A stretch of 32,849 bases of DNA from Desulfurococcales archaeon (GTDB taxonomy: Archaea; Thermoproteota; Thermoprotei_A; Sulfolobales; NBVN01), in NCBI GenBank assembly GCA_021158735.1, contig JAGGUC010000067.1:1-32849 (forward strand). The letters run 5' to 3'. Numbering within the stretch: the first letter of the stretch is position 1; the number at the start of each line of letters is the position of its first letter. Position numbers and translations under genes: made by a program. A model generated the notes under the pieces. It ran no database searches, was not told where the DNA came from, and saw only the letters and a list, made by a program, of their open reading frames with translations. Positions 17,511 through 26,212 of this stretch are shown one piece after another.

Positions 17511-18643
17511 ATGTTTGGAAATACGTATTTTCGAAGTTACTTAGTTTTCATTTCTTCAAGAACCGTCAAGAACGTATTAGCTATTCAGATGACTACTCTA
17601 AATGCGGCAGAGTACTTAGGTATCGGGGAGATCGGTGCTATAATTCCCAGTAGTTTCGCGGACATAGTAATACTTAACGACTTCAAGGAATTCAAAGTAA
17701 GTGAAGTGATCATGGAAGGGCAACTACTCATCAAGAACGGAAAGTTCCCCCGCGGTCTTGGCCCGAGATTTAAATATCCTGACAAAGTATACAAAACAAT
17801 AAATATGAGGAAGTTAGAGTCTCCATCAGACTTATTGATTAGGGTTGGTGTAGATGCTGGCGTAGCTGAGGTTATTGCTATAAGGGTGGTACCCGGCAAG
17901 ACCGTAACTAGAAGAGACAGGGTGTTAGTGAAGGTGCGTAATAAATACTTGAGGGTTACGGAGAGTCAGGACATTTCTCATGTCTGTGTTATTGAGAGAC
18001 ATCATGCGACAGGGGGTACTGGTCGTAGATTCGTAACGGGGCTTAGTTTAAGGCGGGTGCAGTAGCTCGGAGCATAGCTCATGACACGCACAACATAGTG
18101 GTTGTGGGTAAGAATCCAGTGGACATGTATGTAGCAGTCAATGAACTATCTATGATGAGTGGGGGTATGGTGTGCGTAGTTAATGGTAGGGTCGTCAGCA
18201 GTTTCTGAGGTAAGGTTTTTTATAGGTCTGTGTTGGTCTTTAGTTAGGAAGTACCTCCTAGATGTGTCCCCTGTGCCGTTGGGGACGAAGGGTGCCCATG
18301 ACCTCCACGTGAAGCGACTTGTAGCCACAATGAAGTGTGGAGTAGAGGCACAACCCGTCCTAGCAAGACCTACATAGACCTAGGACGGGAAACGGTTATC
18401 GGGAAAGTTACACTACCTACTGCTGGACTCATGTCAGATAAGAGATTTGAGGAGGTGGCTCAGGATATAGAGGATTTTGCTGGTGTAATGGGGACTGTGA
18501 ACTTAAGTTATCATGCAGTCTTCATGAACATAGCACTGTTGACACCTCCTGTAATTCCTGAGATAAGAATAACTGACAGGGGTTTAGTCGATGCTGTTGA
18601 AGGCAGACTTATCGAGCCCGTGCTGAATTTCAAGGAGTCATAG
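17511..18643 (+). pseudogene. adenine deaminase, N-terminally deleted, frameshifted and interrupted
   Basis: Only the C-terminal half of an adenine deaminase is present: AIQMTTLNAAEYLGIGEIGAI, ADIVILNDFKEFKV, IERHHATGG, then after a one-base shift near 18050 ARSIAHDTHNIVVVGKNPVDM and GGMVCVVNGRVVSS. After about 190 bases of foreign-looking sequence it resumes with GKVTLPTAGLMSD, NLSYHAVFMNIALLTPP, IPEIRITDRGLVDA. In intact enzymes VNG(K/R)VV is followed directly by the LP-x-AGLMSD segment, so the middle is an insertion. The catalytic N-terminal barrel (HxH and Lys) is missing. It would have converted adenine to hypoxanthine in purine salvage. Its last codons lie 55 bases from the convergent helicase gene. 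Confidence 0.88.
18245..18390 (+). ncRNA. candidate structured RNA inserted in the adenine deaminase pseudogene
   Basis: The insert begins with a TATA-like GGTTTTTTATAGG (18214-18226). About 25 bases later comes a series of strong helices: GTCCCC (18266-18271)/GGGGAC (18281-18286); a long composite hairpin 18283-18360 with GTGCC (18292-18296)/GGCAC (18347-18351), CTCCAC (18303-18308)/GTGGAG (18337-18342) and TTGT/ACAA around an AGCC loop; and CCCGTCCTAG (18354-18363)/CTAGGACGGG (18380-18389), a perfect 10-bp stem. The inner loop has GA (18316-18317) opposite TGA (18331-18333), as in kink-turns. The design recalls archaeal H/ACA guide RNAs, but I cannot assign a class. A folded mobile insert (MITE-like) is the other option. 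Confidence 0.45.
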
Positions 18644-21544: not shown

Positions 21545-22855
21545 CTATTTGGGTCTCACATGCCCCCATTTTCTCAGTGCTTCAGACAGCTCCTTATGTG
21601 TCTTAGCGTACTCCTCAAGCGGTGTGTTACTTAGGTAAGCCTCAATAGCCTGTCTGACTGCCATGCCCCCAGCTCTTGTCCCCCATGGATGCCCGGTAAC
21701 GCCTCCTCCCACCTGAATCAGTATGTCTACACCCATAAAGTCAAGTACTTGATGTAGGATTCCTGGGTGAAGCCCGCCTGAAGCTACGGGTAATACGGGC
21801 TTTAGTCCATACCATTTCTGCGTTTCTTTAATTGACTTAGCTTCTGGTTTGAATTCCTCTCTGGTCATAACATTCACGGTTTCCCGCAATTCTGCCATGT
21901 CGGCCTCCATCTTACCTACATTAGTGCCTACATGAATGTGGTCAACACCAGCTAATCTAGCTATCTTAGCTATTAAGTAAAACGAAACACCATGTTCCTT
22001 ACTTCTAGTGAATGCTGCATGGAATGCTCTGTGAGCATGGATAGCTAGTTTTAAGTCTTCGGCCTCCTCTCTCACAGTCTGAAGTGCTGCCCAGCCAGCA
22101 CATAAGATGTCGATCATGATGAAGTTATTGCCGTGATCAGCTACGGCCTTCATACGTCTAAGCATCTCACGTGTCTCAGCAGTTATGTTTACTAAGTAGC
22201 CTTTTCTCTCACCAGTTTCTTTTTCAGCTTTTTCTAGTGCCTTGACTACAGCGGCTAGTCTTTTCTCGAACTTATTGAAGCTTTGACTAGTCAGGTTTTC
22301 ATCATCTTTAATTAGGTCTACCCCTCCAGTAGCTATTTCGTACGCTACTTGAGCGTATTCTTCTGTTGTGAGTCCTACTTTAGGCTTAGGGACGGTAGCT
22401 AGTATGGGTCTGCCATGTACCTTCAGAATATCCCTGACACCCTTCACACCGAACTGCGGCCCTAGGAAGGACTTGACGTACTTTTCAGGGAACTTGATGT
22501 CAATAACTCTCAGTGCTTTGATAGCTCTCATGCCGAAGATATTGCCTAGGAGTGAGCTGAATAGCTGGGGTATGGAACCAAGCTCAAAGAGGTCTAACGG
22601 GTAAGCTACCTTAATTAGCCCGTCCTCACTCATGTAGTATACCTTCGCCATTAAATTCTTTATGTGGTCTTTGAGAGTAGTTAGTGTTGTCCAGGTGCCT
22701 ACACTGCTTTCTGAAGCAACCCTACCTGCAGCATCTGCTAAGCTGACACCTGGAGCTGGCCTTACCTTAAATACGGCGATTACATCGTGGGTTCCCGGAG
22801 TATATGATAAGTCGATGAAGTCTCTATACCATTCGAAATCTTGGTCTTCACTCAA
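21545..22855 (-). CDS. rbcL: ribulose-bisphosphate carboxylase, archaeal form III
   Basis: 436 residues, the length of archaeal form III. Catalytic segments: KPKVGL with Lys157/Lys159, GGVDLIKDDE with the carbamylated Lys183 and metal ligands Asp185/Glu186, AIHAHRAFHA with His275, loop-6 Lys315 in GTNVGKMEAD, and SGGLHPG and GGGVTGHPWG phosphate loops. In archaea without a Calvin cycle this enzyme works in AMP/nucleoside salvage: ribulose 1,5-bisphosphate derived from AMP plus CO2 gives 3-phosphoglycerate. The partner genes (AMP phosphorylase, R15P isomerase) are not in this window. It starts at TTG 22855, about 38 bases after a TATA-like GGTTAAATAC, with a weak GGT site before it. No small subunit, as expected. 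Confidence 0.96.
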   Translation of the reverse strand: MSEDQDFEWYRDFIDLSYTPGTHDVIAVFKVRPAPGVSLADAAGRVASESSVGTWTTLTTLKDHIKNLMAKVYYMSEDGLIKVAYPLDLFELGSIPQLFSSLLGNIFGMRAIKALRVIDIKFPEKYVKSFLGPQFGVKGVRDILKVHGRPILATVPKPKVGLTTEEYAQVAYEIATGGVDLIKDDENLTSQSFNKFEKRLAAVVKALEKAEKETGERKGYLVNITAETREMLRRMKAVADHGNNFIMIDILCAGWAALQTVREEAEDLKLAIHAHRAFHAAFTRSKEHGVSFYLIAKIARLAGVDHIHVGTNVGKMEADMAELRETVNVMTREEFKPEAKSIKETQKWYGLKPVLPVASGGLHPGILHQVLDFMGVDILIQVGGGVTGHPWGTRAGGMAVRQAIEAYLSNTPLEEYAKTHKELSEALRKWGHVRPK

Positions 22856-24779: not shown

Positions 24780-24855
24780 GCCGCCGTAGCTCAGCCGGTA
24801 GAGCGCCGGCCTCGTAAGCCGGTGGTCGCGGGTTCAAATCCCGCCGGCGGCTCCA
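24780..24855 (+). tRNA. tRNA-Thr (anticodon CGU), with encoded CCA
   Basis: Full cloverleaf: acceptor GCCGCCG/CGGCGGC, D-stem GCTC/GAGC, anticodon stem CCGGC/GCCGG with loop CTCGTAA (anticodon CGT at 24813-24815), variable loop TGGTC, T-arm GCGGG-TTCAAAT-CCCGC, discriminator T, then CCA at 24853-24855. No intron. It serves as the attachment gene of the integrase that starts 74 bases downstream. It is complete, as expected when an element restores the tRNA 3' end. Confidence 0.97.
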
Positions 24856-24898
24856 CTCACCCTAAGTTCTTCATGAAAACTTATATACCCCTCAGGCG

Positions 24899-24926
24899 GT
24901 TCCCGTTTCTTGGAGGTTCCGGGAAC
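24899..24926 (+). promoter_or_regulatory. hairpin enclosing the integrase ribosome site
   Basis: GTTCCCG (24899-24905) and CGGGAAC (24920-24926) can pair around a loop containing the GGAGGT ribosome site (24912-24917) of the integrase GTG at 24929. A TATA-like TTATATA (24881-24887) lies upstream. The hairpin or DNA dyad could limit integrase translation or be an operator. Confidence 0.4.
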
Positions 24927-24928
24927 TC

Positions 24929-26212
24929 GTGTTCGAACTCGGTTCTGATGTTGAGTGGTATGAGAGGGTTAGGGTTGAAGCTTTAGGTGACGATGTTAGG
25001 CTTAGTATTTTAAGGGCTGTTAAGAATAAGCTTGGATTTAATGGGGCTTGTAGTGCTTTAGGTATTGCTAAGTCAAGCCTCCATAGGTATCTTTCAGGTA
25101 AGCGTAAGATACCTAGTGATGTTGTTAAGAAGGCGCTTAGACACCTTGAGAGGGAGGAGTTTGAATCCATTGTTAGTGAATGGGATAAACTCAGGGCTCT
25201 AGGTGTTATAAGCGATAAGGGAGTTGTAGATTATGGTCTTGCACTTAAGATACTGGGGCTAGCATCTAAAGACGAGTACTTAAAGAATGCTATCTTGAAA
25301 TTTGTCGTCCAAGAATTTAGAGACGATCTTAGGAAAATGCTTGGAATAAGTTTTGTAGGAATTAAGCTGGAGTGGAGTGAGAATTTCGAATACTTCCTCA
25401 TGGAGCGTAAGAAACGTAGGAAAGTAAAAGACCCAGAAACACTAAAATACTATAAAAGCCTATTCGAAAAGTACTTGCAGGGTAAGGAGCTTTCAGAGAA
25501 GCTAATAGACTATGTAGTTAACCATCCAAATAGGTGGCTTAGAAACGTGTTTAGACACTACATACAGTACCTATACTTTAAGAGGAAAATATCACCTGAA
25601 ACATTTGGTTGGATTATGGAGGTTGTTCCTAGCAGGAGCTACAAGCTAGATGTGAGGCCATACCAGATATCTCTAGAAGACTTGAGGAAAACATTAGCAT
25701 TCCTTAAAGAGAAACACCAGCTATACTACACGATCTACAAAGCCATGCTTGAGTCAGGTGCTAGGTTCGAACATGTACTTAGGATGTTTGAAAAATGGAA
25801 TCCTAGCGAAGTAATTGAAATCCCAGGGTTAAACATTATTACCAAGAGGCTTGTATGTTTCGAGGATAGAGGTTTCTGCAGATACTACATGGGCTTAAGG
25901 GGTTCTGAGAAACCATGTGAGTGGGTGTACTTCAGCGCAGACACACTCAAACTACTACGGGAATTCGCTTCTAAACACGTCAACAGACACCAGGTCAGTA
26001 AGTACGCTAAGAGGCACAACCTGATACTGCCCAAATACATGAGGAAGGCTTCGTGGAGGCTTATGGTGAAGGCCGTGCCTAGGGAAGTAGCTAGGTTCAT
26101 CCAGTCTAGGTTCGGGGAGCTTAGAGTTAGTGAGGCGAGGTACGAGGACTTACTTGGTGAGGCTGATGAGGAGTATCCCAAATATCTAGGGATGGTTAGG
26201 GAGTACCTGTAA
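24929..26212 (+). CDS. int: archaeal tyrosine integrase (pNOB8/SSV-like)
   Basis: 427 residues from GTG 24929, 12 bases after GGAGGT. N-domain about 1-80 has an HTH-like unit (LGFNGACSALGIAKSSLHRYLSGKRKIPSDVVKKAL). A core-binding region follows (about 150-235, many Lys/Arg). The catalytic domain includes the first Arg in SGARFEHVLRM (Arg279), a Lys/Arg pair KASWRLM (Lys373, Arg377, replacing bacterial HxxR as in SSV-type enzymes), and Tyr candidates ARYEDL (405) and EEYPKYL (416, 419). All elements for activity appear present. It would cut and join at the 3' half of the adjacent tRNA-Thr. The gene does not contain the att site, unlike true SSV integrases, so it stays whole after integration. 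Its N-domain pattern matches the remnants at 1284 and 7441. Confidence 0.93.
   Translation: MFELGSDVEWYERVRVEALGDDVRLSILRAVKNKLGFNGACSALGIAKSSLHRYLSGKRKIPSDVVKKALRHLEREEFESIVSEWDKLRALGVISDKGVVDYGLALKILGLASKDEYLKNAILKFVVQEFRDDLRKMLGISFVGIKLEWSENFEYFLMERKKRRKVKDPETLKYYKSLFEKYLQGKELSEKLIDYVVNHPNRWLRNVFRHYIQYLYFKRKISPETFGWIMEVVPSRSYKLDVRPYQISLEDLRKTLAFLKEKHQLYYTIYKAMLESGARFEHVLRMFEKWNPSEVIEIPGLNIITKRLVCFEDRGFCRYYMGLRGSEKPCEWVYFSADTLKLLREFASKHVNRHQVSKYAKRHNLILPKYMRKASWRLMVKAVPREVARFIQSRFGELRVSEARYEDLLGEADEEYPKYLGMVREYL

Follow-up and report, generated by a model that had tools for sequence, protein, structure and literature searches.

A gene-free IS607-derived element carrying a predicted TnpB guide-RNA scaffold in an archaeal adenine deaminase pseudogene

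The window analysed in this study, a stretch of 32,849 nucleotides from a Desulfurococcales archaeon, contains a degenerate adenine deaminase gene divided by a short insert. The first-pass annotation of the window had regarded this insert as a candidate non-coding RNA gene, and had suggested that a guide RNA might have been transposed into a dead gene or that the insert might be a MITE-like element with a fold. What, then, is the insert, and could the RNA that it encodes have a function? The two descriptions turned out to apply at once, since the insert has the ends of an IS607 transposon and carries a predicted TnpB guide-RNA scaffold; the idea of an independent RNA gene, in contrast, did not hold.

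Boundaries and transposon origin of the insert

The host pseudogene lies on the forward strand at 17562-18595 and was recognised by three pieces matching TIGR01178 (17562-18056, 18044-18202 and 18401-18595). It has defects besides the insert: the N-terminal part is absent, and a frameshift is present near 18050. An intact adenine deaminase orthologue was found in a genome of the same genus (G001:C28), and comparison with it showed that the pseudogene is interrupted by a 204-bp segment at 18192-18395. The DNA alignment of G001:C28 to the window ends at 18196 and resumes at 18394, with a 7-nt overlap at the joint. When this overlap is read parsimoniously, the simplest empty site is AATGGTAGGG followed directly by TTATCGGG. 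Contig G001:C87 was rejected as a reference for the empty site because its DNA could not be aligned, and G001:C28 was taken instead.

When the flanks were joined in silico, they gave an open frame, GGMVCVVNGRVIGKVTLPTAGLMSD, which matches the G001:C28 orthologue. The insert therefore does divide two segments that are normally adjacent in the enzyme, as had been noticed from the sequence. The empty site and the joining of the flanks also showed a GG dinucleotide at both junctions of the element and no target-site duplication. The left GG crossover dinucleotide is located at 18190-18191 (empty site AGGG/TT, the slash marking the junction). The right one, at 18394-18395, is assigned from the empty site and from column counts of the pseudoknot described below, and is at the same time the 3'-terminal dinucleotide of the predicted RNA scaffold. 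Of the limits originally given for the insert, 18197-18395, the right one was exact, whereas the left one was off by 5 bp from the mapped end at 18192.

A DNA search of the genome of the window (G000) with the insert gave one entire short copy on contig C171 (70%) and two longer elements, on contigs C47 and C104, which bear the two ends of the insert at their own two ends. In these elements, the sequences matching the first ~45 and the last ~155 bases of the insert are separated by ~1.8 kb (C47) and ~2.5 kb (C104). Because these two elements carry the insert's ends at theirs, the insert is the left end of an IS607 element fused to its right end, and so a MITE-like internal-deletion derivative. 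The empty-site comparison, the in-frame flanks and the copies in the same genome together delimit the whole non-autonomous miniature IS607 element at 18192-18395 on the forward strand.

The transposase of the C47 element has a MerR-type helix-turn-helix and a resolvase domain, and its score with the IS607-family model NF033518 was 217.6 bits (cut-off 110). The TnpB of the same element scored 54.8 with PF07282 (cut-off 26.3) and 97.6 with the guided-TnpB model NF040570, slightly below the cut-off of 100. A phmmer search of the PDB with the single TnpB gave no match; a profile built from eight such TnpBs matched solved TnpB and Cas12f structures. The putative RuvC residues D184, E273 and D369 are invariant in the alignment of the eight proteins and are kept in the C47 TnpB. 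In the C104 element, tnpA is intact, but tnpB contains stop codons and is split by a LAGLIDADG reading frame. This homing-endonuclease frame (locus L009 on C104; 639-1328, reverse strand) lies inside tnpB, where it separates the two parts of the zinc-binding region. With in-frame stops after the LAGLIDADG insertion, the C104 tnpB looks dead unless it is spliced, in which case the insertion might be a bulge-helix-bulge intron.

The insert begins with a left end of ~50 bp (18192-18241) that is common to the full-length C47 and C104 elements. It contains the TATA-like box reported earlier, TTTTATA at 18218-18224, which is conserved in the alignment of left ends and is located upstream of tnpA in the full-length copies. 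The left end meets the 3' part of tnpB in a deletion junction region at 18242-18257, where ~1.8 kb of tnpA-tnpB sequence is missing relative to C47. The element thus resembles a MITE in being short (204 bp), in having no full gene, in occurring in several copies (C171 and relatives) and in sharing the ends of an autonomous element. By eye, no terminal inverted repeats of useful length were found between the left end, CAGTTTC..., and the right end, ...GGGAAACGG; such repeats are absent from IS607 elements (PMC3852290). We therefore use the label MITE-like and do not call the insert a strict MITE. The search for further copies that had been proposed for this insert was thus positive both in its own genome and in relatives, and the refuting outcome named at the time, which included a lack of conservation and of other copies, did not arise.

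A conserved RNA structure nested in the end of tnpB

Alignment of 33 copies showed that the right-end ~138 nt form a structured RNA of four helices and two long-range pairings. In this alignment 91.6% of the cells are paired, whereas sliding the 3' side lowers the value to 39-44%. Changes on both sides of a pairing occur in 89 cells, as compared with 36 in shuffles. The single-sequence fold of the insert only modestly exceeded that of shuffled sequences (z = -2.19; 4 of 200 shuffles were equally good). The RNA structure is therefore proven by covariation over 33 relatives and not by single-sequence folding. This upholds the strong structure that had been seen in the insert from the start.

In the window, the predicted scaffold occupies 18258-18395 on the forward strand. 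Helix P1 (GUCCCC/GGGGAC, 18266-18286) shows compensatory changes in five of its six pairs. Its loop contains CCGUU (18276-18280), which pairs with AACGG (18391-18395), adjoining the presumed guide, in 89.7% of the cells and with one compensatory change. The second long-range pairing, between GUGCC (18292-18296) and GGCAC (18347-18351), is formed in 95.2% of the cells. A GUGCC located in the loop of P1 was comparably good as a partner of GGCAC but was dropped, because this GUGCC overlaps CCGUU, which pairs with AACGG. Helices P3 (18303-18309/18336-18342) and P4 (18314-18319/18323-18328) follow within 18303-18342. The terminal hairpin P5 (18354-18389) is the perfect 10-bp stem of the first-pass annotation, CCCGTCCTAG at 18354-18363 with CTAGGACGGG at 18380-18389. 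The GA/TGA loop, which had been likened to a kink-turn, falls within helix P3/P4, and the kink-turn was not supported.

The pairing of CCGUU with AACGG corresponds in form to a pseudoknot that proved necessary in the IS607 element ISXfa1 (PMC10711439). A fixed flanking base was also reported to be part of the scaffold (PMC10711439), and the presence of the GG crossover bases within AACGG in the present RNA agrees with this. In P4, the alignment row of the window copy shows two A.C mismatches, and this individual copy may therefore be decaying.

Variants of the right end were also seen. The elements L095 (G041) and L072 (G015) share their terminal hairpin and left end with the other copies, but the upstream RNA at their right ends is another one, GGGTTTCCGAGACC...GGGGAGGGGGCTCAGGGAAACC, and may represent a second type of scaffold. 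At G022:C4:126687-126726 (L096), the terminal hairpin CCCGTCCTAG...CTAGGACGGGAAACAGA occurs without the remaining scaffold.

In the C47 element, the right ~138 nt code for the C-terminus of TnpB, and the stop codon lies within the last stem. A covariance model, R1, was built from the scaffold RNA and searched in the genomes of 60 relatives. It gave 422 matches in 41 of the 60 genomes, which contain 57 TnpB matches. At least 30 of the 57 TnpBs carry an R1 match at the 3' end on the same strand; no wrong-strand R1 was found at a TnpB among the matches listed, and 35 of the 150 R1 matches listed lie at a TnpB 3' end. Most of the TnpBs with R1 at the 3' end are only 34-41% identical to the C47 TnpB. 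The RNA is thus tied to TnpB independently of the sequences from which the model was built. Across the phylum, an R1 match was present in 55 of 300 genomes. The R1 match (153 bits), the covariation and the linkage to the tnpB 3' end lead us to read the right-end RNA of the window element as the scaffold of a TnpB guide RNA (omegaRNA/reRNA), lying within the end of the tnpB coding sequence.

Further, weaker R1 matches of 28-57 bits were observed in the genome of the window, on C90, C47 (4852-4995), C65, C148, C18, C116, C48, C86, C80 and C51 (L162-L172). Several of them have identical scores and lie at contig ends, which points to more repeat families.

Alternatively, an archaeal RNA gene in its own right might have moved into the pseudogene, for instance one for an L7Ae-binding guide RNA of the C/D, H/ACA or another type. 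The structure, the TATA-like box and the location in a dead gene would agree with this explanation. The ends of the insert, however, are those of full-length IS607 elements, and the RNA is found at tnpB 3' ends in other genomes. Nor did any Rfam family (tRNA, 5S, SRP, RNase P, sno/sRNA and others) exceed its threshold, the only match being a chance one to SNORD101 (E = 3); the earlier remark that the insert matches no common archaeal RNA is consistent with this. An independent RNA gene is refuted by the transposon ends and the tnpB linkage, and we consider it extremely improbable. An assignment to C/D, H/ACA or other L7Ae/kink-turn RNAs was likewise unsupported.

Presumed guide, gene-free copies and proposed mechanism

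The empty site has TAGGG (18187-18191) immediately to the left of the insertion point. AGGG precedes 24 of 33 left ends, as compared with 7.6% of GG sites in the window; this count over 33 left ends replaces an earlier one over 18, which had been chosen partly by eye for GGG. Published target-adjacent motifs (TAMs) of IS607 TnpBs are AGGAG and GAGGG (PMC11061315) and GGG (PMC10711439). The TAGGG beside the window element fits these motifs and is the presumed TAM of the empty site. From the architecture of IS607 omegaRNAs (PMC10711439) and the mapped right end, the presumed guide is the ~16-20 nt of adenine deaminase sequence directly 3' of the element (18396-18415). The putative TnpB target in the deaminase gene would then be TAGGG followed by TTATCGGGAAAGTTACAC.

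Many of the strong R1 matches have neither TnpA nor TnpB inside the ~4 kb examined. R1 and TnpB matches stand at a ratio of ~7:1 (422 versus 57), where 422 counts all matches of the model, not each of which is established as a solo copy. A search with the left end only (E < 1e-7) gave 14 matches. Eleven of these were short elements, and in all 11 the RNA lies within ~200 nt; the other three were a full-length element, one element at a contig edge and a longer one, which was matched weakly at its far end. The flanks of solo copies differ among copies, and one orthologous pair, L059/L073, has the same flank.

Short elements in two genera (G015 and G022) have one internal junction in common, and they therefore probably descend from a gene-free ancestor. 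In this miniature lineage, the tnpB frame is interrupted in several copies, 91.8% of the cells are paired, and double changes number 16, as compared with 6.5 in shuffles. Where miniature elements differ in their junctions, they still keep the entire ~138-nt scaffold and not the terminal hairpin alone. These facts give modest evidence that the RNA is under selection in the gene-free state, the alternative being that the right end is needed in transposition.

The analysis identified the element as a transposon derivative with defined limits and empty site, and it showed the conserved fold of its RNA, the linkage of this RNA to TnpB genes and the abundance of solo copies. The following mechanism could connect these observations. 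An internal deletion of an IS607 transposon removed tnpA and most of tnpB and left the miniature element. This element entered the adenine deaminase gene, or its pseudogene, at a GG dinucleotide, a step for which an IS607 serine transposase would have acted in trans; the intact tnpA genes on C47 and C104 of the same genome are candidate sources. Transcription from the TATA box of the left end would run through the scaffold into the flank and yield the scaffold with ~16-20 nt of deaminase guide. The TnpB of a full-length relative such as C47 could bind this solo RNA in trans and cut element-free copies of the site next to TAGGG, and recombination would then copy the element back, resulting in its retention. 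A role of TnpB in retention has been published for IS605/IS607 elements (PMC11870625). For the functional part of the scheme, which comprises mobilisation and TnpB binding (both in trans), transcription, cutting and retention, we would put the prospects at about even. Taken together with this scheme as the leading mechanism, our identification of the element and of its RNA appears highly likely to be right.

There is another possible interpretation, in which the scaffold is a fossil: the right end of a miniature IS607 element would be kept for TnpA, and the RNA would be used by no TnpB. In agreement with this, P4 contains two mismatches in the window copy and the tnpB of C104 is already broken; in addition, the scaffold is inseparable from the right end, and transposition in trans alone could explain the number of solo copies. 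In the two-genus lineage, however, the high pairing and the excess of double changes persist after the loss of tnpB. It is the whole scaffold and not the terminal hairpin alone that is kept across different junctions, and the C47 TnpB is full, with its putative catalytic residues present. We regard a fossil scaffold as a serious contender with a probability clearly below even. It should be noted that the scaffold RNA overlaps both the right end required by TnpA and the coding end of tnpB, so its conservation could partly serve transposition or the protein.

The solo RNA might also have been domesticated as a guide with which TnpB, or a dead TnpB, performs regulation or defence, and not retention. 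The excess of scaffold over TnpB matches would be expected in this case, and bacterial TnpB-derived RNA-guided regulators, TldR, are known (PMC13418256). The flanks vary between copies, which fits transposition rather than a fixed guide, and the putative RuvC residues are kept in the C47 TnpB. Domestication therefore seems very unlikely. Returning to retention, a broader proposal can be made for this archaeal order: gene-free IS607 derivatives may be trans-acting guide RNAs that hijack the TnpB of a few full-length copies, the insertion site of each solo copy serving as guide for its own retention and the scaffold being selected in the gene-free state. We advance this tentatively, as a proposal that falls slightly short of an even chance.

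Relation to known elements

The window element resembles the IS607 transposons with a TnpA serine recombinase and TnpB, such as ISXfa1 and ISFba1, in the TnpA family of its full-length relatives and in its GG crossovers, lack of duplication, G-rich motif to the left of the element, predicted ~150-nt right-end RNA entering the flank and guide-side pseudoknot (PMC10711439, PMC11061315). Unlike them, it is gene-free. The ISFba1-type RNAs, derived from RAGATH-18, are described as occupying a non-coding region downstream, whereas the present scaffold is contained in the last part of the tnpB coding sequence, as far as the stop codon, and has no Rfam match. SisTnpB1 of Sulfolobus islandicus is likewise an archaeal RNA-guided TnpB with its guide RNA at the tnpB 3' end, but it is of the IS200/IS605 type with the TAM TTTAA, as compared with the IS607 type and AGGG here (PMC10640517).

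Gene-free elements have precedents. The MITEs of Staphylothermus marinus, reported in 2009, are ~260 nt long, occur in 14 copies and are linked to IS607 (PMC2678158). Compared by description, they are also crenarchaeal IS607-related miniature elements, some of them within genes; in contrast to the window element, they have inverted repeats and resemble the region upstream of transposase ORFs, and no guide RNA was recognised in them (PMC2678158).

PATEs are palindrome-associated gene-free elements of the IS200/IS605 type with a TnpB-linked guide RNA. They share with the window element the gene-free state and the combination of transposon ends with a guide-RNA scaffold; they derive from IS200/IS605 elements with a Y1 transposase, whereas the window element derives from IS607 with a serine transposase. 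The insert was accordingly not assigned to the PATEs, its parent TnpA being an IS607 serine recombinase and not a Y1 enzyme.

In the literature searched, the coverage of which was partial, we found no description of gene-free IS607-type elements with a guide scaffold. The present analysis indicates that IS607 elements give rise to gene-free derivatives retaining the full predicted TnpB guide scaffold, and that, by match counts, solo scaffolds are commoner than the genes for TnpB among the thermophilic relatives covered here. The scaffold would represent a new guide-RNA family, nested in tnpB and without an Rfam match, whose covariance model reaches distant relatives. The question is thereby raised whether a gene-less mobile element can hold its site through a CRISPR-like nuclease supplied in trans.

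Two other features of the window are worth recording. At 24780-26212, a tRNA-Thr (CGT) stands immediately before the frame of an integrase of archaeal phage type (PF16795, 78.8 bits), which suggests an integrated element at this tRNA gene. On the reverse strand at 21545-22855, a frame resembles, by eye, the large subunit of form III RuBisCO.
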